In this document: piece after piece, positions 7,696 through 21,337 of the stretch
How positions within the stretch are numbered: the first letter of the stretch is position 1
How the letters are laid out: every line of letters starts with the position of its first letter
Source of the DNA: Planctomycetia bacterium
GTDB taxonomy: Bacteria > Planctomycetota > Planctomycetia > Gemmatales > Gemmataceae
Direction: 5' to 3'
Length of the DNA: 48,520 nucleotides
Assembly: GCA_005772955.1 (NCBI GenBank)
Contig: SXID01000183.1
Span: forward strand, 1-48,520
Notes under the pieces: model-generated
The model's database searches: none
What the model saw: only the letters and a program-made list of their open reading frames with translations
What the model was told of the DNA's origin: nothing
Position numbers and translations under genes: made by a program

Positions 7696-8583
7696 TCACA
7701 CCGTGGGAGGGGAGATCAGACTGGTGATAGTGATGCCGTACTTTTCAGCGAGCGCGACCGTGGCCGCCGAATCAATGACGATGGTCCGCCCGGCCTCGAT
7801 CGCGAGCGCCGTGGCCCCAGCCTTTCGCATTGTCTCGATAGTTCGCGTTCCCACAGTCGGGACGTCGAACCGGCGGTCCTGTTCGGGCTTGGCCACCTTC
7901 ACGACGACGAACGCGTTCCGTCGGCACAGTTCGCCAGCCCGGAGAATGGCGAGGTCTGTCCCCTCGATCGCCTCAACCGCAAGAACGGCACGCTCGCGGA
8001 CCATGACGCTCTGGCCGACATCAAGCCGGCCCATTTCACGCGCCAGATGCCAGCCGAACGCGATGTCCTGTTGCTCGCCCTTGGTCGGCTTCCGCCGCGT
8101 CAACACGCCTTCGCTCACGAGCAACTCCGGGCACAGGTCCAAGGCTGATACGCATTCCAGACCTTCCGCCCTCAGTTCGTTGATGCCACCGAGGAGGAGG
8201 GAGTCATCGTTATTCGCGTTGCGGCGCCGGAAAAACCAGAACCGGATCATGCGCCAGTCCGGGACGAGGAGGAACCAGCGCCACGGGCTGAACAACACCC
8301 GCTTCTCGAACTTCCCCGCCATAGTCCACCGCTTCACCCCGCCACGACGGAACGCGCGAATGATTGTCCCAATGGACATGCGTCGGAGCCAGGTGAACTC
8401 CGTGCAGATGGATCTGAGGACTGGGTCTGCCATGCCGTGAGCCGCGACGCACACGACCGGGATGCCGCACTCGCGGGCCTTCTCCGCGAACACGACGGGG
8501 AACCGCCCGCCGCACGCGAGCAACCCCACTGGTTCGCGGGATTCGAACGCGCCACCACCGGAGAGAACCGCACCGGGAACCAT
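7696..8583 (-). CDS. lpxI: UDP-2,3-diacylglucosamine diphosphatase LpxI
   Basis: This 295-residue protein carries LpxI (DUF1009) features: an N-terminal GLLACGGRFPVVFAEKAR segment, KPTKGEQQDIAFGWHLAREMGRLDVGQSV in the middle, and near the C-terminus KPEQDRRFDVPTVG followed by TIETMRKAGATALAIEAG. LpxI hydrolyses UDP-2,3-diacylglucosamine to lipid X and UMP in the cytoplasm, the step done by LpxH or LpxG in other bacteria. Its ATG follows the lpxD stop with no gap (TAG then ATG), so the two are translated together. The length is close to typical LpxI. This supports a lipid A pathway in this planctomycete. Confidence 0.93.
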   Translation of the reverse strand: MVPGAVLSGGGAFESREPVGLLACGGRFPVVFAEKARECGIPVVCVAAHGMADPVLRSICTEFTWLRRMSIGTIIRAFRRGGVKRWTMAGKFEKRVLFSPWRWFLLVPDWRMIRFWFFRRRNANNDDSLLLGGINELRAEGLECVSALDLCPELLVSEGVLTRRKPTKGEQQDIAFGWHLAREMGRLDVGQSVMVRERAVLAVEAIEGTDLAILRAGELCRRNAFVVVKVAKPEQDRRFDVPTVGTRTIETMRKAGATALAIEAGRTIVIDSAATVALAEKYGITITSLISPPTV

Positions 8584-9606
8584 CTACTGAGCCCCCGTGT
8601 CGAGTTGCTTCTTGATTTGCTTCACGTCCTGGCGCAAATCCGACAACCGACGAAGGTTCACGTGCAGCCGCAACTGTTCCTGCAACGGCAGCGCCGGCGT
8701 GCCGAGCGCCTGCGAGTCGGACGGTAGGTCGGTCGTGACGCCGGATTGCGCGCCGACCCCGACCCGCGCGCCGATGGTCAGGTGGTCCGAAACTCCGACC
8801 TGACCGCCCAGCATCACGTGATCCCCGGTCACGCACGACCCCGCGACGCCGACCTGACCGCAAAAGATGTTGTGTCGCCCGATCTGGCAGTTGTGTCCGA
8901 TCTGGACGAGGTTGTCGATTTTCGTGCCAGCCCCGATGCGGGTCGGCCCGAACGTACCGCGATCCACCGTCGAGTTGGCCCCAATTTCGACGTCGTCCTC
9001 GATCTCAACAGATCCCAACTGCGGAACCTTCTGCTGCGTGCCGCGAACGGTCCGGTAGCCGAACCCGTCCGCCCCAATAACGACTCCGGCGTGCAACGTG
9101 ACGCGATCGCCAATCACGCAGTCGTCGTACAACACGACACGCGGGTGCATGGTCACCTCACTGCCGATCTTGCAGAAACGACCGATCACAACTCCGGCAT
9201 GGATCGTGGAGTTCGCCCCCACTTCGACGCCCTCTCCAATTACAGCGAACGGCCCCACGGAGACGCCAGGCGCGAGTATCGCTGAGGGGTGAACGTGAGC
9301 TGACGGGGACACATCACCCGGTGACTCTGCCGGGCGGGCGCGGAGGTGTTGAACGATGTTCACGAACGCCATGAGAGGGTCGACGACTCGGATGACCGGG
9401 CGGCCATTCACGGGAACCGACGCGGGCACGACAGCGGCTGAGGCCTTACTTGTGTGCCACGCCGACAGGTGCTTTGCGCTCTCGACAAAGGTGATGTCGC
9501 CTGGCTGGGCATCACCAAGCGTGCGGGCGTTCGAGATGGCCAGGTCAGGGTCGCCGAGAACCTCGCCTCGAACCCACTCGGCAAGTTGCCGCACGGTGAC
9601 GTTCAC
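8584..9606 (-). CDS. lpxD: UDP-3-O-acylglucosamine N-acyltransferase LpxD
   Basis: This 340-residue protein opens with [20 protein letters not shown], the LpxD uridine-binding domain, followed by a left-handed beta-helix of hexapeptide repeats (residues about 100-290; e.g. [22 protein letters not shown]). The GADGFGYR and [11 protein letters not shown] segments carry the conserved Gly/Phe motif and the catalytic His. The C-terminus is a helix ([18 protein letters not shown]) as in trimeric LpxD. It transfers a hydroxyacyl chain from ACP to UDP-3-O-acylglucosamine in lipid A synthesis. It is directly followed by lpxI; fabZ and lpxA, often found between them in other phyla, are absent here. Confidence 0.95.
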
Positions 9607-10637: not shown

Positions 10638-12506
10638 TTACCCGCCGCACCCTTTGGGTGCTTCGCCGGCCTCCCCGCCTTCGCCAATGACCGCGTCGGC
10701 CATCACACGAAGTTGGATCACGCTACGCTCCTGCTCCTTCTCGAGGTATGCGCGGCCTTTCTTCACGTTGACGTGGTCCCACGGCAGTTTCTCGCCGACC
10801 GGGCGCGGTCGCGTTCGGTAGAAATCCACGTCGATGCCGAGATCCTTGAACGCACCACACCACACGTCTGGCTTGAAGCACTCCTTCCAGCCGTCAAATC
10901 GGGCACCGCGTTTCCACGCTTCGTACAGCCCGGGCGCGACGCGACGATCCCCGCGTGTCAGGATACCTTCGAGCAGACTCGTCTCGATGTCGTGTTGTTT
11001 GATCTTCACGAACTTGTTGCGCTTCTGGCGGTGCAGGTAGTCGCCAGCCCAGCGGAAGTATTCGCGGGTCTGCATCCCGTTCCACTGATATGGCGTGTGG
11101 GGCTTAGGGATGAAGTTCGATACCGACGCGGTCACTTCCTTGTGACGCCCGGTCGCTTGCTTACCCACCTCGCTGATGGCTTCCGCGAGTTCCACGATGC
11201 CGTCGAGATCTACGGTGCGCTCGCCCGGCAGCCCGCACAGGAAGTAGAGTTTTACGTGCGACATACCGGCCTTGAACGCCTCGCGACAGCCCTCGATGAG
11301 GTCGTCGTTCTTGATCGGCTTGCGGATCTGAGTTCGCATGTCGTCGCGCGCGACTTCGGGCGCTAGTGTGAGACCGGCGCGGCGCCAACCCTGCATGAGT
11401 TGCGGCACGCTGCGGAGTTGGTGGTTCACGCGAAGGCTCGGCAGAGAGACGTTCACCCCCAACGGCCCAAACACCTCATGCATCCGCTTCACCAATTCCT
11501 CGAAGTGCGGGTAGTCACTGCTCGACAGCGACAGCAGACTGACCTCGTTCATTCCGGTGTTGCGGTAACTCTCCAGTGCAGCCTGTACGATGGTCTCCAC
11601 CGAACGAACGCGGAGCGGGCGCTTGATGACGGTGGACTGGCAGAATCGGCACTGCCACGGGCAACCTCTCATGATCTCGATCGCGACGCGGTCATGCGGC
11701 GTCTGAACGAACGACACGACCGGCCTCGTCGGTAGCGGAATGTCGTCGAGGTCTTGCGTGATCGTGCAACTTTCGATCTGCATCGGTACGTCGCTGCGTG
11801 TTCGGTTGACCGCAGCGATGGTGCCGTCCGCGTGGTAGTCAAATTCGTAGAACACGGGCGCGTACGCCCAGCGAGTACTCTGGACCAGCTCCGCGAGCAT
11901 CTCAAGGCGGCGCTCAGGAGAGAGATCGTCTTCGCGAATCGCGACTTCCTTGAGCGCCATCCACTTTTCCATCACCCACGGCAGCGATTCCTCACCGTCA
12001 CCGATTACGAAAAGGTCCACGAACGGGGCGAGCAACTCCGGATTCTGCGCGCCTGGTCCACCCGCGATCACGAGCGGGTCCGAAACGCGACGCTCCTTCG
12101 CGAAGTGGGGGATTCCGCCGAGGTCGATCATCGTGAGCAGGTTCGAGTAACACACTTCGTACTGAAGGCTGAACCCGACGATGTCGAACTCGGAGAGCGG
12201 CGTGAAGGTTTCTAGTCCGTAGAGCGGGAGTCGGTTGCGGCGGAGTTCGCGTTCAAAGTCCATCCACGGCGCAAACGCGCGTTCACAGGCCCACTGCGGA
12301 TCATTGTTCATGATCGTATAGAGCACCTGGAACCCGTGGTGGCTCATGCCCAGCGTGTACGCATCAGGGAAGCACAGGCACACTTTCCCGCGAACCTGCC
12401 GGTGGTCCTTGGTGATCGAGTGGAGTTCGCCACCGGTGTACTGCGCGGGGGTCTTCACTCGCGGCAGCACCCGCATGACAGCTTCGCGAACGGCGGTGTT
12501 CAGCAT
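10638..12506 (-). CDS. TIGR03960-family B12-binding-type radical SAM protein
   Basis: This 622-residue protein begins with residues typical of TIGR03960 (VLPRVKTPAQYTGGELHSI, then CLCFPDAYTLGMSHHG). A cobalamin-binding-like Rossmann region occupies about 40-185 (IAGGPGAQNPELLAPFVDLF, GDGEESLP). The radical SAM cluster motif MRGCPWQCRFCQ gives Cys282, Cys286 and Cys289 in CxxxCxxC spacing. The substrate of this family is not established. In many bacteria a TIGR03936 partner follows, but none is visible here. The last residues (GEGGEAGEAPKGCGG) are encoded by GC-rich sequence with a short hairpin (GCACCC, GGGTGC) and may be a non-conserved tail. An extended -10 promoter lies 40 bases upstream. 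Confidence 0.9.
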   Translation of the reverse strand: MLNTAVREAVMRVLPRVKTPAQYTGGELHSITKDHRQVRGKVCLCFPDAYTLGMSHHGFQVLYTIMNNDPQWACERAFAPWMDFERELRRNRLPLYGLETFTPLSEFDIVGFSLQYEVCYSNLLTMIDLGGIPHFAKERRVSDPLVIAGGPGAQNPELLAPFVDLFVIGDGEESLPWVMEKWMALKEVAIREDDLSPERRLEMLAELVQSTRWAYAPVFYEFDYHADGTIAAVNRTRSDVPMQIESCTITQDLDDIPLPTRPVVSFVQTPHDRVAIEIMRGCPWQCRFCQSTVIKRPLRVRSVETIVQAALESYRNTGMNEVSLLSLSSSDYPHFEELVKRMHEVFGPLGVNVSLPSLRVNHQLRSVPQLMQGWRRAGLTLAPEVARDDMRTQIRKPIKNDDLIEGCREAFKAGMSHVKLYFLCGLPGERTVDLDGIVELAEAISEVGKQATGRHKEVTASVSNFIPKPHTPYQWNGMQTREYFRWAGDYLHRQKRNKFVKIKQHDIETSLLEGILTRGDRRVAPGLYEAWKRGARFDGWKECFKPDVWCGAFKDLGIDVDFYRTRPRPVGEKLPWDHVNVKKGRAYLEKEQERSVIQLRVMADAVIGEGGEAGEAPKGCGG

Positions 12507-12544
12507 GGGAAGGCTCTCGACTTTCGGCGGAACAGGTCACGCCG

Positions 12545-12553
12545 ATTATAGCA
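12545..12553 (-). promoter_or_regulatory. Extended -10 promoter element for the radical SAM gene
   Basis: On the minus strand these bases read TGCTATAAT, a perfect extended -10 (TGn plus TATAAT), about 40 bases upstream of the ATG at 12506. No good -35 is present; its place is taken by the hairpin repeat at 12561-12629. The same 19-base context occurs at 14432-14450. Confidence 0.55.
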
Positions 12554-12560
12554 AGAACGG

Positions 12561-12629
12561 CGAACGGCCGGTGTAAGCCGGCTGGTGAGGGTTGGAAATT
12601 CTCACCAGCCGGCTTTCACCGGCCGTTCG
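12561..12629. repeat. Near-perfect 29-bp inverted repeat (CCGGCTGGTGAG hairpin)
   Basis: Arms at 12561-12589 and 12601-12629 match at 28 of 29 positions and flank an 11-base loop. It lies between the stop of the thioredoxin/PDZ gene (12642) and the promoter of the radical SAM gene, both on the minus strand, so it may terminate the first transcript. There is no strong poly-T run. It resembles dispersed hairpin repeats seen in Gemmata genomes. Confidence 0.9.
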
Positions 12630-12641
12630 CCCTGCAGAGGG

Positions 12642-13844
12642 CTACTTCAACAACAACTTCACAACGGTGCGCTTTCCACCTCGGATGATGTTGATGGCGA
12701 CATCATCGCCGACAAGGTAGTTTCGGCGGACGTAGCCGAAGAGCTTGCTGATGTCGCCTTCCACAGTCTTGCCGTCGAACCCGATCACGATGTCGCCGCC
12801 CTTCAGGCCCGCGGCCTTGAGTATCGCGTGAACCTCCGCATCCTGGCGAAGCGCGGCGTGCTTCGGGTCCAGTCCCATCGCGTTCTTCTCGGCCTCGGTC
12901 AGTTCGCCGCCGCTGAAAGGTGCTGAGGGGAGGATATCTAGCATTGATGGCCGCCACGTCAGGTTGGTCTTTCGCCAGCCATCGGTAACGGAAATCGTGC
13001 CGGTCATCTCCTTCCCGGCGCGCACCCACGAGACCGGGAGTTCGCCCTTCGCCGGCGCCTTGTGCAACGCGTACGATGCGTCCGCGAACGACGCGACGCC
13101 ATAGCCGTTGAGCTTCGCGAGGCGGTCACCAGACTTTAGCCCGGACTTCTCCGCTGCCGAACCGACCGAGACCGTTTTCACGAGGTCGCCGCTGTCCACG
13201 TCGAGCGTGATGCCAACGTTCTCTGGCAGCGGGTAGACCCACACGCTGTTACGGTCCCACTTTCCCGCAGCCTTGAGGTCGGCCCTGCGAAACTCGTTGA
13301 TGTTGTGACAGTGGATGCACCCCTTGTGCCGACTCGCTGCGACGAAGTCCTCTGCCCGCTCTGGTCGCCCGGCAATTGCGACGGCAGCCGGCGGCGATTT
13401 GTGCGCGTCAAGCGCGCGGAGCATCGCGTGGCGCAGTCCCTTCATTGAGAGGCGTGCTTCGGCGTCGGACGCGTCGCGCCCGCCATAGCGCCCGTAAATC
13501 GTCTCGTCTGCATTGAGGAGAAACGCGAACCAGGTGAGGTCGTGATCGAACTCAAACCGACGCAAGTCTGCCCCGGCGATCTTCACCAGGCGGACCCGAA
13601 CGAACTTATCCGCGATGTCGGCGATGTCCTTGTGGAGACGAACAACCTGCTCGTCTATCGAGGCACAGTCGCCTCAAGGCTCGCAGCGGAAGACGAGCAG
13701 CATCGGCTTGCCGGTGCGATTCGCCTCCGCTTTCGCGGTCGCGTAGTCGGAGTGCCAGCCGTATTTCGCGGCGTCGAGTTTGGGCGCGGCTACGGCAGAA
13801 CCGGCGGTGAGCAGCAGGGCGGGCAGAACCAGGACGCGGTACAT
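12642..13844 (-). CDS. Probable selenoprotein: secreted thioredoxin-like UxxC domain, CxxCH motif and two PDZ-like domains
   Basis: The protein starts at MYRVLVLPALLLTAGSAVAA (signal peptide, ATG at 13844). Its frame is interrupted by a single TGA at 13676-13674 and then continues open to 12642, giving 400 residues if the TGA is read through. The TGA is codon 57 in the context FRCEP-U-GDC, i.e. a UxxC redox motif right after the strand GKPMLLVF, where thioredoxin folds carry CxxC. Downstream come the rest of a thioredoxin-like domain (to about 145), a CIHCH heme-type motif (Cys176-His180), a PDZ-like domain at about 205-260 and a second PDZ-like domain at about 339-400. A hairpin after the TGA fits a bacterial SECIS element. 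The parts on either side of the TGA would otherwise be two broken genes. Selenocysteine insertion is inferred; a nonsense mutation or sequencing error is the alternative. Confidence 0.78.
13636..13676 (-). promoter_or_regulatory. Candidate bacterial SECIS element with its UGA codon
   Basis: On the minus strand, UGA (13676-13674) is followed after 17 bases by an 8-bp stem, AGACGAGC paired with GTTCGTCT (13656-13636), with one G-U wobble. The five-base loop is AGGUU. Bacterial SECIS elements place a loop with conserved GGU about 16-37 bases after UGA, and E. coli fdhF has AGGUCU. The fit was judged by eye. Confidence 0.65.
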
Positions 13845-13946
13845 GGGTGGGGTCTCGGGTCGGGTGGGTGTCGGGGTCAAACTCGCGCGCCGTGGGGTTC
13901 ATCACGGTTGTGGAAAGACCGCGTAAGAACCCTGCGGCGCCGGGAA

Positions 13947-14348
13947 TCACTTCTTCTCTTCTGGTTTCTTGAGTACCTCGAGTTTCATCACCCGGAACCG
14001 CTCCTCGAATAGCCAGTCGATCTTCACACGACTATTCACGGCGACAGTCTTGATCTGCGCGACCATGTCCTTGTCCGGCCCGCCACCTGCGGCCGGGGCG
14101 CCACCCTTCCACTGAGGCACGTACTTGCGTGCCTTTTCCTCACCGTCAGCCTTGAGTTCAATCCAGTTGTCACCCTTCGCAGTGACCACACCAGTAACCG
14201 CACCCTTGCGATCTTTCTCGTCTTTCTTCTCGTCCTTCTTCTCAACCTTCTTCTCGTCAGGCTTCTTGTCTTCCGCGCCGCCGGCGACGAGACAAAGTCC
14301 GATCATCCCGACGCCCAGCGACCAAGCGAGTGTCCAGCGCGCGAACAT
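13947..14348 (-). CDS. Small secreted protein with Lys/Glu-rich linker
   Basis: This 133-residue protein begins MFARWTLAWSLGVGMIGLCL, a signal peptide, with a GGAGA ribosome site before the ATG at 14348. A low-complexity charged linker rich in DEKK units follows (about 27-48), then a compact beta domain (AVTGVVTAKGDNWIELKADG, then VNSRVKIDWLFEERFRVMKLEVL). I recall similar paralogues in Gemmata, but the function is unknown. The frame extends upstream to 14513, but that part is not protein-like. It is probably exported and bound to something through the beta domain. Confidence 0.75.
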   Translation of the reverse strand: MFARWTLAWSLGVGMIGLCLVAGGAEDKKPDEKKVEKKDEKKDEKDRKGAVTGVVTAKGDNWIELKADGEEKARKYVPQWKGGAPAAGGGPDKDMVAQIKTVAVNSRVKIDWLFEERFRVMKLEVLKKPEEKK

Positions 14349-14681
14349 CTCCGAGTCTCCGTGGTAAGTGGAATCCAATGGGAACAGCCACCGCGTTAAC
14401 ACCGTGCGGGCGGAACGGTTCCGTCGGCCACGGTCACGCTGATTATAGCAGCACGCATCACGAAAGACCCGGACGGGGTCCAGGGCTTTCGCTTCTGGTC
14501 GCGCGGGGTCCACGGCCTGTTTGTTTCATCTTTCCTTGCGCTGTGATGAGCAGAGCAAACTCAACTGACGCAACACCAGTCGCGTGGTTTTCACCACGAT
14601 GAGTTAATCCGGCCCGACACAACTCAACGCCGATACGTTACACTCCGAACGTTCATCGTGATACGTTGGGGATTAACTCGA
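14349..14681. other. Divergent intergenic region
   Basis: This spacer lies between a minus-strand gene (start 14348) and the plus-strand DUF1415 gene (start 14682). It contains the extended -10 at 14442-14450 for the minus gene. I see no clear plus-strand promoter and no open frame with coding character. Confidence 0.6.
14442..14450 (-). promoter_or_regulatory. Extended -10 promoter element for the small secreted protein
   Basis: The minus strand reads TGCTATAAT about 95 bases upstream of the ATG at 14348. The surrounding bases match those at 12545-12553, with 18 of 19 positions shared. A -35 is weak, as expected for extended -10 promoters. Confidence 0.5.
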
Positions 14682-15230
14682 ATGAACGCCGACAGAGTCG
14701 TGGAAGCAACACAGAGGTGGATCGCGAACGTGGTGATTGGGCTGAACCTGTGCCCGTTCGCGCGGCGGGTCTTCGACGGATTGTTGATTCGATACACCGT
14801 CACCGACGCGACAGACGCGGAGTCGCTCCGCGCGGCCCTCGCGGTCGAACTCCGAACCCTCGCGGACGCTCCTATCGAACAAGTGGAAACCGCTTTCCTG
14901 ATTCACCCGTTCGCGCTCGGCGAGTTCCTCGATTACAACGATTTCGTTGTCGAAATCGAATCGCTGATCGCGGAACTCGGTCTGGAAAGCGTGATCCAGA
15001 TCGCGAGTTTCCATCCCGGTTACCAGTTCACGGGGACGCGCCCGGACGATGTCGAAAACTACACGAACCGCTCGCCGTTCCCGATGCTGCACCTATTGCG
15101 CGAAGACAGTATCAGCGCCGTGAACAACGATCCCGAGGCACTCCAGAACATCCCGCGGCGGAACATGGAGACACTCCGCCGACTCGGTTTGGCGAAGGTA
15201 CTCGCGCTGCTCGGTCACGGCGACACTTGA
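14682..15230 (+). CDS. DUF1415 family protein
   Basis: This 182-residue protein starts MNADRVVEATQRWIANVVIG and shows the DUF1415 (PF07209) signature: GLNLCPFARRVF near residues 24-35, then DYNDFVVEIE and ASFHPGYQFTGTRPDDVENYTNRSPFPMLHLLRE. The conserved Cys in LCPFA and the FHPGYQF motif are intact. The family's function is unknown; it is cytoplasmic with no membrane segment. The ATG at 14682 was preferred over an upstream in-frame start at 14658 because family members start near here. The gene is followed after 77 bases by a membrane protein on the same strand. Confidence 0.92.
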   Translation: MNADRVVEATQRWIANVVIGLNLCPFARRVFDGLLIRYTVTDATDAESLRAALAVELRTLADAPIEQVETAFLIHPFALGEFLDYNDFVVEIESLIAELGLESVIQIASFHPGYQFTGTRPDDVENYTNRSPFPMLHLLREDSISAVNNDPEALQNIPRRNMETLRRLGLAKVLALLGHGDT

Positions 15231-16618: not shown

Positions 16619-19600
16619 CTACTTCTTGAACATCGCATGGTTCGGGTCGCCGCGACTCAGCATGTACGCAAGCATGTCCAGAACCTCGTTCTCGTTGAGC
16701 TGGTTCAAGAGCTTCTCCGGCATCAGAGAGATAGCCGACGGCTTCACGGTCGCCACGTCATCCTTCTTGATCTCAACGACCTTGCTCGAATCTTCCGGGT
16801 CGGTGACGATCACGTACTTGCCGCCCGCGTCGTTCACGATCTTGCCCGTAATGGTTTTGTCGTCCGTTGTGCGGATCACGGATGCCTTGTACTGATCAGA
16901 GATCACCTTGCTCGGTTCGACGAGTGCTTCGGCCAACTCCTTCACACCGAAGCGCCCGGCGACCTGCGAGAGGTCCGGCCCGGTCGCACCGCCGTCGCCC
17001 CCCATGCGGTGACACACCACACACCGCGCGGCGGCATACGCACGCTGACCGTTCTTGAAGTCGCGGCCGTTCTTCAGTTTCTCTTCGAGCGCAACTACGC
17101 TCACGGTCGTCCACTCCTTGCCAGGGCCGACAGGCTTTGGCAACGCCGGCGCTTTGTACGCGGGGCGCATCCCTCCCGCCTCGATCGCGAGCCGGTCGAG
17201 GTCGGTCGCATTGGCGAACGCTTCCTTCTCGATGTTCGTCAGGAAGCCCTTGAAACTGGAACCGCCGGACTTGCTCTGTGCCTCCTTGAGGAAGCCGTAA
17301 TAGCTCTTCCAGCGGTCCATGTTCCAGCCGACAGTCGCGTTGCGGAGCGTGAACAGATACGACAGTTTCTGTTGGTCCGCTGAGTTTTTAAGCATGTTCG
17401 CGATGGTGCCGCCGTAGCCGCGGTTGCGGAGCAGCACCTCGTCCAACCCCTCCTGTGTGAGCGGCTTCGACGGCTTTTTCATCTCCGCAGTCACCTTCTC
17501 AACGATCGTCGGGGACTTGAGATAGACGAGGACTTGCGCGAGTTCACGGTTGACGAGATCGGACTTGTGCGGGAACAGCGGGTCGATGTTCGCGACCAGC
17601 GTCGCTCCCGCGACTTTCTCAGGCTCGCCGGTCCGTGTGAAGACGACTTGATACGCGCGAAGCAGGTCGAGTTGCTGGCGCTGATCGAGTTTGGCGAAGT
17701 CGAGTGTTGCGAGTCGCGCGAGCAACTTCGGTTGCAGAGTTTTCGTGCCTTGGTGTGCCAGTCCGACGACCGCGTTGACGACCGCATCTGGTTCGGCGAG
17801 CGCGAGCGCCTTGTCCTGCCAGTGCTCCACGGGTTGATGTTCGAGCGCGACGCGAGCGGAGTAACGAACGAAACGGTCCGCGTGGCCGAGCAGCGGGAGC
17901 AAGAACTCGACCGCCTTCCCGGCGTCGACCGTTGGCTTGTGGTACTCCTCGATCTGTTTCAGCAGTTTGCGTTCCGCGGTCACGGCGGTCGCGGTCTCGG
18001 CCTTCGCGGTCGAATCCGTGCCGACATACGTCACGCGGAACAGTTCGCTCTGCGCGCCGCGCCCGCCGACCGTGAAGTACATCGCGCCATCAGCCGGGTT
18101 GATGACCACGTCCGTCAGCGGCAGCGGCGTGCGGCTCAGGAACTCTTCTTTCGTCGCCTTGTAGGTCGCACCATCAGGAGTGGTGTGGATCGCATACATC
18201 GTGCCGAAGGTCCAGTCGCAGATGTACAGCGCCTTCTGGTACTTCGCGGGGAACTTCGCACCGTAGCCGAACTCAACACCGACAGGCGAACCTGGGCCGA
18301 TGTCGACGGCAGCGGGCAAGCTATCGACGTAGTAATTCGGCCACACGCCGGAGCCGCTGCGCCAGCCATACTCGCCGCCACTGACGGTGTGACTCACTCG
18401 CGTTGGCCGATACCACGGCATGCCCATGTCCCACTCCATGTCGGAGTCGTAGACGAACATCTCGCCGTCCGCGTTGAACGCGAAGTCGTACTGGTTCCGG
18501 TAACCGGTGGAGAACATCTCCCACGTCTTGCCGTCGAAGTCGGTTTTCACCACGTACCCGCCAGGCGCCAGAATCCCGCGAGCGTGGCCGCCCGCGTCCC
18601 ACTGTCGCGGCAGGATGTGGTCTTCGGACCAGTTCTTGGGCACGCGGCTGTGCGTGAGTTCAGGCGCCTGCGTGTGGTTTCCGCACACGACGTAGAGCGA
18701 TTTGCCGTCTGGCGCGAGCCGGATCGCGTGCGGCCCGTGTTCGCCGCCGCCCGCGATCGCCTTCAACTTCTCGACCTTGTCGAGCGTGTCGTCATTCTTC
18801 GACGAAGTGACGCGATACAGCCCACTACCGGGGCCGCCGTTGCACACGACGTACAACGTCCCCTTGTGCCACAACAACCCCTGCGCCGCGCTGATCTTCG
18901 CGGGGATCTTCTCGACCTTCGTCTCATCGTCAGTGCCGACCTTGCCCGGCGTAATTCGGTAGAGTCCCAGCCCGCCCTGGTCGCTCGCGATGAGCCGGCC
19001 TTTGTCGTCGGCGGTGAGGCACACCCACGAACCAAGCGTCGCCTTCGGCACCGTGAAGAGCTTCTCGACCTTGAAGCCGGGCAACGCGACGAACGTGTTC
19101 GCCGGCACCTTCGAGCCGGGTTGCGCCGCGGCGCTCGCCTCGAACACCTTGCCCCACGGACCGTCGCCGTACGTCGCGATCTTCTTGGCTATTACTGCCT
19201 TGACGCCCTGCTTCTCGGCCGCAAGCCACGACTCGTCGGAGACGACATATTTCACGTCGCCCTTGTCATTGACCATCGCGAGTTTGAACACGAACCCGGC
19301 GACACCGCCGTCGTTCTTCACCTCCGCGACCAGTTCGTTCTTGTCCTTGATGAGCGACGTCACGTCGGCCTCAGCGCCGTCTTTCCACTCGTCGGACACG
19401 GACACCTGCTTGCCATTGAGGAACAGCGTGACGTGGTTGTCTGCGGACATCTTCAGGCGCGCGGCTTTGACACCGGTCGCGGCGAACTCAGTGCGCAGAA
19501 CGTAGTTCTTAGTGGGTGTCGCACCCCAGACCCAGAGCGGTACCGGACCGCCGTCAAACCGCTTCGACCACTCTGTGGACACGACCTCGACCGGCACCGG

Positions 19601-19720
19601 CTTTGGCACCTCGCCGCGCTCGACCGTTGGCGCGACGGTCGGCTTCTGGGTGAAGGTGTCGTCGGCGCGTGCGAGCGTACACAGCGCCAAAGAGAGCAGT
19701 GTGAGTGTTGTGGTGCGCAT
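16619..19720 (-). CDS. PVC-type CxxCH heme-binding protein with beta-propeller
   Basis: This 1033-residue protein has a signal peptide (MRTTTLTLLSLALCTLARA). Residues about 40-195 form a beta-sandwich resembling carbohydrate-binding or sialidase N-terminal modules (VKAARLKMSADNHVTLFLNG). Residues about 210-570 form an NHL/sorbosone-dehydrogenase-like propeller (GDGPWG, LIASDQGGLGLYRITPG, YRNQYDFAFNADGEMFVYDSDMEWD). HEAT-like helices follow, then a TIGR02603-type C-terminal cytochrome domain with CVVCH at 900-904 followed by GATGPDLSQVAGRF. It is probably a secreted oxidoreductase acting on sugars or other alcohols and passing electrons through its heme. It lies downstream of DUF1501 and PSD1 genes on the same strand, a planctomycete catabolic arrangement. 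Confidence 0.93.
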   Translation of the reverse strand: MRTTTLTLLSLALCTLARADDTFTQKPTVAPTVERGEVPKPVPVEVVSTEWSKRFDGGPVPLWVWGATPTKNYVLRTEFAATGVKAARLKMSADNHVTLFLNGKQVSVSDEWKDGAEADVTSLIKDKNELVAEVKNDGGVAGFVFKLAMVNDKGDVKYVVSDESWLAAEKQGVKAVIAKKIATYGDGPWGKVFEASAAAQPGSKVPANTFVALPGFKVEKLFTVPKATLGSWVCLTADDKGRLIASDQGGLGLYRITPGKVGTDDETKVEKIPAKISAAQGLLWHKGTLYVVCNGGPGSGLYRVTSSKNDDTLDKVEKLKAIAGGGEHGPHAIRLAPDGKSLYVVCGNHTQAPELTHSRVPKNWSEDHILPRQWDAGGHARGILAPGGYVVKTDFDGKTWEMFSTGYRNQYDFAFNADGEMFVYDSDMEWDMGMPWYRPTRVSHTVSGGEYGWRSGSGVWPNYYVDSLPAAVDIGPGSPVGVEFGYGAKFPAKYQKALYICDWTFGTMYAIHTTPDGATYKATKEEFLSRTPLPLTDVVINPADGAMYFTVGGRGAQSELFRVTYVGTDSTAKAETATAVTAERKLLKQIEEYHKPTVDAGKAVEFLLPLLGHADRFVRYSARVALEHQPVEHWQDKALALAEPDAVVNAVVGLAHQGTKTLQPKLLARLATLDFAKLDQRQQLDLLRAYQVVFTRTGEPEKVAGATLVANIDPLFPHKSDLVNRELAQVLVYLKSPTIVEKVTAEMKKPSKPLTQEGLDEVLLRNRGYGGTIANMLKNSADQQKLSYLFTLRNATVGWNMDRWKSYYGFLKEAQSKSGGSSFKGFLTNIEKEAFANATDLDRLAIEAGGMRPAYKAPALPKPVGPGKEWTTVSVVALEEKLKNGRDFKNGQRAYAAARCVVCHRMGGDGGATGPDLSQVAGRFGVKELAEALVEPSKVISDQYKASVIRTTDDKTITGKIVNDAGGKYVIVTDPEDSSKVVEIKKDDVATVKPSAISLMPEKLLNQLNENEVLDMLAYMLSRGDPNHAMFKK

Positions 19721-19842: not shown

Positions 19843-21291
19843 TCAGGCCAGGACCTCTTTCACGACCTTGCCGTGAACGTCAGTGAGCCGGTAGTCGCGG
19901 CCCTGGAAGCGGAACGTCAGTTTCGTGTGGTCAAAACCGAGACAGTGCATGAGCGTCGCTTGCAGGTCGTGGACGTGAACCATGTCCTTCGCCGGTTTGA
20001 AGCCAAGATCGTCGCTCTCGCCGTGCGTGTGACCAGCCTTGATTCCACCGCCCGCGAGCATCAACGAGAAGCTATCTGGGTAATGGTCGCGACCGAGTAC
20101 CTGCCCGCCCGCGGTGCGGCCCTCGCGGAACGGCGTGCGCCCGAACTCACCGCCCCACACGATGAGCGTGTCCTTCAGCAGGTCGCGGTTCTTCAAGTCC
20201 ATAATGAGCGCCGCGACCGATTGCGCGGTGGTGGTTCCCTTCTTCGTGAGTCCATCGCGGATGTCTTCGTTCGGCCCGGTACCATGGAAGTCCCAGCCCC
20301 AGTCGAAGAGCTGAACGTACCGCACGCCCTGTTCGATGAGGCGCCGGGCGAGCAGACAGTTGTTCGCGAACGTACCCGCGCCAGGTTTCGCGCCGTACGA
20401 GTCGAGTACCTTCGCCGGCTCCTTCGAGATGTCCATCACTTCGCTTGCGGAGAGCTGCATCCTGAACGCGAGTTCGTATTGGGAGATGCGGGTTCGCGTT
20501 TCGGGGTGACCGAGTTCTTTTTCCTGTAGTTCGTTCAAGTCTTTCATCGCGTCGAGGCCGAGTCTGCGCATGTCGCGGTCGAGTCCCGGCGGATCGCTGA
20601 GGTACAGAACCGGTTCGCCCTTACTACGGCACTGCACGCCCTGGAAAACGCTCGGCAACAACCCGCTACCCCAACAGCCCTGACCGCCACTCGGCTGGAC
20701 GCCGTTGGAGATCAGCACGACGAAGCCGGGCAGATTTTCACTCTCGTTGCCGAGGCCGTAGCACGTCCACGCGCCGAGGCTTGGCCGCCCTGGTCGCGCG
20801 AACCCGGTGTAGAGGAGCAATTCCGCGGGCGCGTGGTTGAACTCGTCGGTCTTCATCGAGCGAATCACGGTCACATCGTCCGCGACCGCGTGCAGCGGCT
20901 TGATCGCGTCCGACATCCATGTGCCGGCCTTACCGTGCTGCTTGAACGGCTGCCGCGTCCCTAACAGTTTGGGAACGCCAGATGTGAACGCAAACCGCTT
21001 CCCTTTCAGGAACTCGTCCGGACAGTTCTTCCCATCCTGCTTCTGCAACTCCGGTTTGTAGTCGAAGATGTCCAGGTGCGGCGGTGCCCCTGACATGTGT
21101 AGGTAGATCACCCGCTTAGCCGTGCCCGCGAAGTGCGGCTTCCTCGGCGCCAACGGGTTCTCGTTCCTGGGTGCATCGGCGCGTGCTTCGCCCATCAGCG
21201 ACGACAGCGCGAGGCCGCCCAACCCCAGCGAAGAGTCCTGGAGAAAGTTACGGCGTGTGACAGCCTGAAGGCGTTCGAGTGCTGGGTGCAT
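19843..21291 (-). CDS. DUF1501 domain-containing protein
   Basis: This protein of about 482 residues starts at MHPALERLQAVTRRNFLQDS. It carries a twin-arginine signal (TRRNFLQ followed by a hydrophobic SSLGLGGLALSSL), so it is exported folded by Tat. DUF1501 hallmarks follow: KRVIYLHMSGAPPHLDIFDYKP, FNHAPAELLLYTGF, YVQLFDWGWDFHG, IVWGGEFGRTPF and GRDHYPDSFSLMLAGGGIKAG. The fold resembles sulfatase/alkaline-phosphatase enzymes, but the reaction is not established. The start at 21291 is supported by an AAAGGG ribosome site 8 bases upstream. The preceding PSD1 gene ends 46 bases upstream, and these two families occur as a pair across planctomycetes. Confidence 0.95.
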   Translation of the reverse strand: MHPALERLQAVTRRNFLQDSSLGLGGLALSSLMGEARADAPRNENPLAPRKPHFAGTAKRVIYLHMSGAPPHLDIFDYKPELQKQDGKNCPDEFLKGKRFAFTSGVPKLLGTRQPFKQHGKAGTWMSDAIKPLHAVADDVTVIRSMKTDEFNHAPAELLLYTGFARPGRPSLGAWTCYGLGNESENLPGFVVLISNGVQPSGGQGCWGSGLLPSVFQGVQCRSKGEPVLYLSDPPGLDRDMRRLGLDAMKDLNELQEKELGHPETRTRISQYELAFRMQLSASEVMDISKEPAKVLDSYGAKPGAGTFANNCLLARRLIEQGVRYVQLFDWGWDFHGTGPNEDIRDGLTKKGTTTAQSVAALIMDLKNRDLLKDTLIVWGGEFGRTPFREGRTAGGQVLGRDHYPDSFSLMLAGGGIKAGHTHGESDDLGFKPAKDMVHVHDLQATLMHCLGFDHTKLTFRFQGRDYRLTDVHGKVVKEVLA

Positions 21292-21337
21292 TGATAACCC
21301 TTTCACGCCCATCGACTGCATTCGATGGGCCGGAAGT

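Follow-up and report, generated by a model that had tools for sequence, protein, structure and literature searches.

The Trx7/PDZ selenoprotein family

Bacterial selenoproteins that combine a thioredoxin-like domain with PDZ domains have already been described, both in databases and in reviews. NCBIfam release 20 holds an equivalog model, NF041199 (trx7_PDZ_seleno), named "Trx7/PDZ domain-containing (seleno)protein", and the Trx7/PDZ row of a 2026 review gives the motif as CxxU with one selenocysteine (Sec), citing Zhang and Gladyshev 2008 (PMC13188914). A 2022 review has an entry "PDZ domain-containing protein" (pfam13899) with the motif CxxU (PMC9312934). In the Global Ocean Sampling study of 2008, an entry "putative secreted serine protease MucD" has the motif CxxU, two selenoproteins, and 12 Cys homologues (PMC2398784), and "MucD" is described elsewhere as CxxC/U fused to a PDZ domain (PMC9402790). 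The 2008 study never mentions PDZ in its main text (PMC2398784); because the Trx7/PDZ row of the 2026 review cites that paper, its MucD is probably the Trx7/PDZ family, named from PDZ similarity. Sec insertion genes are reported in Gemmata obscuriglobus and Isosphaera pallida in a paper whose main text does not contain the word PDZ either (PMC4807772).

Here, we examined a window of 48,520 nt from the genome of a Planctomycetia bacterium (GCA_005772955.1, contig SXID01000183.1). On its minus strand, positions 12642–13844 hold an intact reading frame of 400 codons from ATG to TAG, including a single internal stop, the TGA at 13676–13674, which is codon 57 (Sec57) and lies in the context FRCEP-U-GDC, at the redox position. 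The mechanical ORF list splits this gene into 12642–13586 and 13606–13950, as had been expected of automatic annotation, and gene calling that treats UGA only as a stop yields a truncated gene. The protein matched NF041199 with 447.3 bits (cut-off 300) over residues 29–397. Five other family proteins were compared with the same model, and four exceeded the cut-off; the fifth (L044), which is cut short, scored 262.5 bits. L044 is one of three family members, with L160 and L181, that stop after about the first PDZ domain.

The window protein has the domain order of NF041199, thioredoxin-7 and then PDZ, with the CxxU motif in the former, and its near whole-length match revealed no difference from that family. 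The first-pass annotation had proposed a new selenoprotein with an architecture that it could not name; the selenoprotein call is borne out by the results below, and both the novelty and the lack of a name fall away. Since the family is already in public databases as a selenoprotein, the gene is not a discovery but a well-supported addition, which very probably encodes a real, exported, selenium-containing redox protein. A serine protease of the HtrA/DegP/MucD type was considered as another identity and rejected: Pfam found no protease domain, only thioredoxin and PDZ, and the NCBIfam Do model reached 63.4 bits, below its cut-off of 416, through the PDZ part only. The protein thus shares CxxU with the Global Ocean Sampling entry named MucD (PMC2398784) but is without a protease domain.

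Domain architecture and redox pair

Residues 1–20 (13785–13844, minus strand) form a probable signal peptide, read by eye, and the structure model has low confidence there. The thioredoxin-fold domain covers residues ~25–152 (13389–13772, minus strand) and carries C54-x-x-U57-x-x-C60. It is followed by a CxHCH motif (CIHCH, residues 176–180; 13305–13319, minus strand), which, as first noted, is present and is kept in relatives, and by two PDZ domains at residues ~205–295 (12960–13232, minus strand) and ~304–400 (12645–12935, minus strand). Both PDZ-like domains of the original reading were recovered by Pfam, which scored Thioredoxin_7 at 44 bits (cut-off 27) and PDZ_2 at 47.3 bits (cut-off 27) in two stretches, and by the structure model.

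An AlphaFold2 model built from 50 rows had a mean pLDDT of 93.5 and a pTM of 0.87. In VIA comparisons, residues 28–152 of the model matched 3f9u (Z 12.9, rmsd 2.4, 115 aligned), with further matches of the thioredoxin part to 1sen (residues 23–152, Z 12.1), AGR2 (22–151, Z 11.9), and DsbH (27–149, Z 11.0). Residues ~200–296 and 304–400 each matched PDZ-containing HtrA-type chains at Z ~11–13, and in a whole-model Foldseek search the 50 rows listed were HtrA-type and RseP proteins, aligned over the PDZ pair. The predicted architecture is therefore a thioredoxin fold, a CxHCH segment, and two DegP/RseP-type PDZ domains, with no protease domain. AGR2/AGR3, TXNDC12 (ERp19), DsbH, and 3f9u share the fold of residues ~28–152 (Z 11 to 13); to our knowledge, no protein of this Thioredoxin_7 structure group has a CxHCH segment or a PDZ pair.

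The redox pair had initially been read as UxxC. The part that stands is the place of Sec57, which the alignment puts at the active-site Cys of AGR2; Cys60 falls at the AGR2 Ser three residues on, and the kept partner of Sec57 is position 54, where AGR2 has no Cys. The alignments print U as C, so positions 54 and 57 were counted as Cys or Sec. In a 35-row alignment (A1), both positions were Cys or Sec in every row and C60 was kept in 32 of 35; in a second alignment (A3), whose 50 rows were found through a pattern ending in RC, all three positions were kept in 50/50 rows. Among the loci read, position 54 (Cys or Sec) and position 57 were never lost, whereas C60 was lost in ten (L028, L050, L051, L054, L159, L174, L184, L186, L187, and L191). 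Since the loci read preserve as partner the residue three positions before Sec57, the conserved pair is CxxU, which corrects UxxC. On these alignments, Sec57 is predicted to occupy the thioredoxin-type nucleophile site, with position 54 as its most conserved partner.

Proposed function

Every row of A1 (35/35) and of A3 (50/50) keeps C176, C179, and H180, which give the CxxCH pattern of c-type cytochromes, and H178 was kept in 34/35 and 49/50 rows, respectively. In the AlphaFold2 model, the segment follows the thioredoxin part and precedes the PDZ pair, where a predicted helix (179–192) begins. A His inside CxxCH is not needed for heme c; because H178 is conserved beyond what plain heme attachment needs, a metal site is an alternative to heme. 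The odds that the segment binds either heme or a metal appear about even.

We consider it highly probable that the protein is an NF041199 selenoprotein working as follows. The protein would be exported, and in the cell envelope Sec57 would be the nucleophile that attacks a client's disulfide, peroxide, or otherwise oxidised thiol. Resolution of Sec57, through a selenenyl-sulfide, would fall to Cys54, with Cys60 helping where present, and the PDZ pair would hold clients by their C-termini or by unfolded stretches. The CxHCH segment would carry heme c or a metal and might exchange electrons, in either direction, with the Cys-Sec pair. Taken by itself, the assignment as an exported thiol/selenol oxidoreductase is likely.

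The strongest competing explanation accepts the selenoprotein but gives CxHCH and the PDZ domains another role: instead of working as an oxidoreductase on client proteins, the protein would resemble a small cytochrome and carry electrons, guided by its PDZ domains. The presence of CxxCH in every row of both alignments speaks for it, as may a 1033-aa cytochrome c domain protein that the window encodes 2.8 kb upstream. Conversely, the nearly invariant H178 suggests a metal site instead, and Pfam found no cytochrome match in the window protein. We regard such a carrier as unlikely, although it deserves more weight than the selenium-free readings considered below, and we prefer the oxidoreductase.

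The UGA codon in relatives

The window protein was searched in 99 genomes including its own (5.9 Mb, 278 contigs, completeness 100). At least 86 matched at E ≤0.001, many weakly or via one domain, and among the matches listed the UGA form was carried by at least 34 of the 99. Altogether, 45 loci with UGA (the window's included) and 20 without were read. One UGA was present in 29 of the first 30 UGA loci, the exception being L028 with two, and in 11 of the next 15; the other four have two UGAs, namely L044, L047, L046, which runs off its contig, and L045, which has three further stops. As the search for Cys homologues proposed at the outset required, the codon corresponding to 13674–13676 encodes Cys in 20/20 UGA-free relatives read, one of which is an intact Cys paralogue in the window's own genome (G000:C52, L058). 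A further locus, L057 (G038:C395), was left out of all counts: it is a fragment in which residues 11–58 match up to CxxU, after which nothing resembles the family, and is either a remnant or another protein.

UGA forms such as L109, L122, and L147 were also found on contigs labelled Verrucomicrobia or Armatimonadaceae, and L090, with roughly half of its residues identical to the window copy, lies on a contig labelled Candidatus Kuenenia; transfer, wide inheritance, or wrong binning could each account for these copies. Viral contigs scanned with single-protein patterns yielded no relative.

SECIS-like hairpin downstream of the UGA

The hairpin with loop AGGUU that had been noted behind the UGA was confirmed. 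The sequence GACGAGC-AGGUU-GUUCGUC (13637–13655, minus strand) starts 18 nt after the UGA and folds into 8 bp with a GGU loop, as an A-U pair closes within AGGUU, placing the loop 26 nt past the UGA. The 40-nt segment from the UGA has a folding energy of −17.9 kcal/mol (z −3.32), and 1 of 200 shuffles was as good. The limits printed for bacterial SECIS elements are a loop of 3–9 nt, a stem of 4–16 bp, a G within the first two loop positions, a distance of 16–37 nt from the UGA, and an energy of ≤−7.5 kcal/mol (PMC13188914); the hairpin lies within all of them, with the energy taken over the whole 40-nt segment. An Rfam scan of the window gave no family at the gathering score.

Comparison of the loci showed that the pairing goes with the UGA. 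Over the seven hairpin pairs, standard pairs filled 95.6% of cells in the 45 UGA loci versus 21.4% in the 20 Cys loci. Among 80 named genome loci, a set that overlaps the former in species, the values were 97.2% (46 UGA) and 24.4% (34 Cys), and at least six pairs were formed in 44/46 versus 0/34, where the 34 include L095, truly a UGA locus with 5/7 pairs. When phylum-wide loci were added, the share of cells with standard pairs was 91.7% for 77 UGA loci and 22.0% for 24 Cys loci; at least six of the seven pairs were present in 65/77 UGA loci, with 12 falling below six, versus 0/24 Cys loci. Furthermore, synonymous codon resampling of the hairpin, from which L044 was left out on account of a linker shorter by two codons, gave a mean z of −2.95 for the 77 UGA loci and 0.02 for the 24 Cys loci.

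Codon choice within the stem is coupled. The eighth codon after Sec is GAG/GAA (Glu), GGG/GGA (Gly), or GCA (Ala) in 43 of 45 UGA loci, and codon +11, mostly Val, is GTT with Glu in 16/17, GTC with Gly in 19/23, and GTG with Ala GCA in 3/3. Base 2 of codon +8 and base 3 of codon +11 were paired in 14/14 distinct hairpins (permutation p 0.0003); p values here are overstated because related sequences are not independent, and the permutation test keeps relatedness in. This match is not demanded by the protein. These results indicate that the hairpin behind the UGA is under selection at the RNA level. The 18-nt linker between the UGA and the hairpin (13656–13673, minus strand) can itself form a short hairpin in many members; it was set aside as a candidate signal, the resampling mean z values of −0.83 (77 UGA) and −0.46 (24 Cys) being too close.

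Selenocysteine machinery and selenium-free alternatives

All four genes named for checking in the first-pass annotation, selA, selB, selC, and selD, were found in the window's own genome. The scores were 461 bits for selA, 380.7 for selB (cut-off 242), 385.9 for selD (cut-off 125), and 71 for tRNA-Sec (selC; gathering score 47), which ARAGORN also calls as tRNA-SeC with anticodon tca (UCA). Across the 99 genomes, a strict SelA match (E ≤1e−60, a threshold picked after the match list had been viewed) occurred in 31 of 34 genomes with the UGA form versus 41 of 65 others among the matches listed (Fisher p 0.004). The three UGA-form genomes without a strict SelA match are G034 (95% complete) and G056 (92%), which have selB over the cut-off, and G018 (65%), in which selB was not found either. 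UGA has not simply been reassigned, because the upstream neighbour gene terminates at an ordinary TGA stop. The UGA is thus aligned with Cys, followed by a hairpin within the SECIS limits, and accompanied by the full machinery. Since the UGA is kept, the hairpin appears to be under RNA-level selection, and the machinery is complete, insertion of Sec57 by SelB and tRNA-Sec is the most likely outcome; on this comparative evidence, we regard Sec insertion at codon 57 as nearly certain.

A hairpin right behind a stop codon is also a feature of some read-through signals, and the UGA could accordingly be a programmed leaky stop that yields two selenium-free products, a truncated thioredoxin and an extended form. 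This reading was rejected as very improbable: all four sel genes are present, UGA goes with SelA, and the UGA-free relatives read use Cys at this codon in every case, not the near-cognate Trp.

Protein constraint was estimated behind the UGA. The dN/dS values relative to the window gene were 0.119 (L011), 0.162 (L012), 0.143 (L013), 0.275 (L015), and 0.172 (L017), and in the comparison with L014 synonymous sites were saturated; these values suggest that strong constraint on the protein persists downstream of the codon. That the UGA is a sequencing error, or a real stop in a decaying gene whose remainder is a pseudogene, hardly merits consideration even though the ORF list splits the gene and the intact Cys paralogue could have made it redundant, given the UGA at this codon in 45 loci read, the strong constraint after it, and a hairpin maintained solely in loci that have the UGA. 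Sec insertion accordingly remains the preferred reading, and covariation and machinery together support selenium use by an uncharacterised, probably exported planctomycete redox family.

Relatives with two probable selenocysteines

A pattern of UGA, 6 nt, UGA, 18 nt, and hairpin was found in 6 of 397 genomes of the window's class; the same pattern read backwards was found in 0 of 397. L044, with its shorter linker, is a seventh double-UGA case. In a phylum-wide sample, at least 124 of 392 genomes matched NF041199 at E ≤1e−40, and among the 150 matches listed, two UGAs were present in 65, a single one in 33, three in 1, and no UGA in 51; these counts are lower bounds, with four candidates scored per genome. 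Forty of the 150 were fetched, hand-chosen over many families. The motif was UxxU in 31/31 fetched loci with two or three UGAs, CxxU in 5/5 with one UGA, and CxxC in 4/4 without UGA. The UxxU loci comprise L028/L158, L044, L045/L162, L046/L161, L047/L163, L159, L160, L164–L182, L184–L194, and L203.

In the UxxU relatives, which are frequent outside the window's class, the two UGAs lie nine nt apart in register with one SECIS-like hairpin behind them, at 26 and 35 nt from the loop and thus both within the printed range of 16–37 nt. In a quick tree of 66 rows, UxxU required six changes for six rows, with several forks unresolved, and Sec versus Cys at position 57 required three changes; in this tree, the fragment L046 was left out, L045 was cut before its further stops, the motif columns were masked, and the phylum-sample rows were absent. 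The first Cys (position 54) seems to have been converted to Sec several times independently. Two of these loci, L045 (G064:C54) and L046 (G065:C42), are second, UxxU copies beside the CxxU copies L042 and L043 in the same genomes, and L045 may be decaying because its frame meets further stops after the motif.

Trx7/PDZ proteins across Planctomycetota are probably in the main double selenoproteins, with a UxxU motif capable of a possible diselenide and one hairpin serving both UGAs, and the window protein would be the single-Sec form. NF041199 relatives often have two UGAs, whereas the 2026 review row gives one Sec; literature searches for a two-Sec form, supplements aside, led to that review only (PMC13188914). 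The UxxU loci offer many natural cases in which to ask whether one SECIS decodes two neighbouring UGAs, and they raise the question of what purpose a diselenide-capable thioredoxin fold serves.

Neighbouring genes

A gene for a small, probably exported protein of ~133 aa lies directly upstream (13947–14348, minus strand). Of the UGA loci compared, 10 of 41 (window included) have this gene as a neighbour, against 0 of 18 Cys loci, some flanks being short; this association may reflect shared ancestry, because relatedness was not removed. The gene may form an operon with the selenoprotein gene; no sigma-70-like promoter site was found in 12500–14700. Neither the window copy nor the L089 copy had a Pfam or NCBIfam match, and a long form in L079 gave weak matches under the cut-offs, except one of 26.3 bits (cut-off 25) to a 48-position domain model. 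The protein is lysine-rich, with the core KGAVTGVVTAKGDNWIELKADGEEKARKYVP in the window, and L079 seems to contain the domain several times.

The gene for the 1033-aa cytochrome c domain protein (16619–19720, minus strand) adjoins one for a DUF1501 protein (19843–21321, minus strand), a pair that is common in planctomycetes. On the other side of the selenoprotein gene, LpxI and LpxD-like genes of lipid A synthesis lie at 7696–9606 (minus strand).
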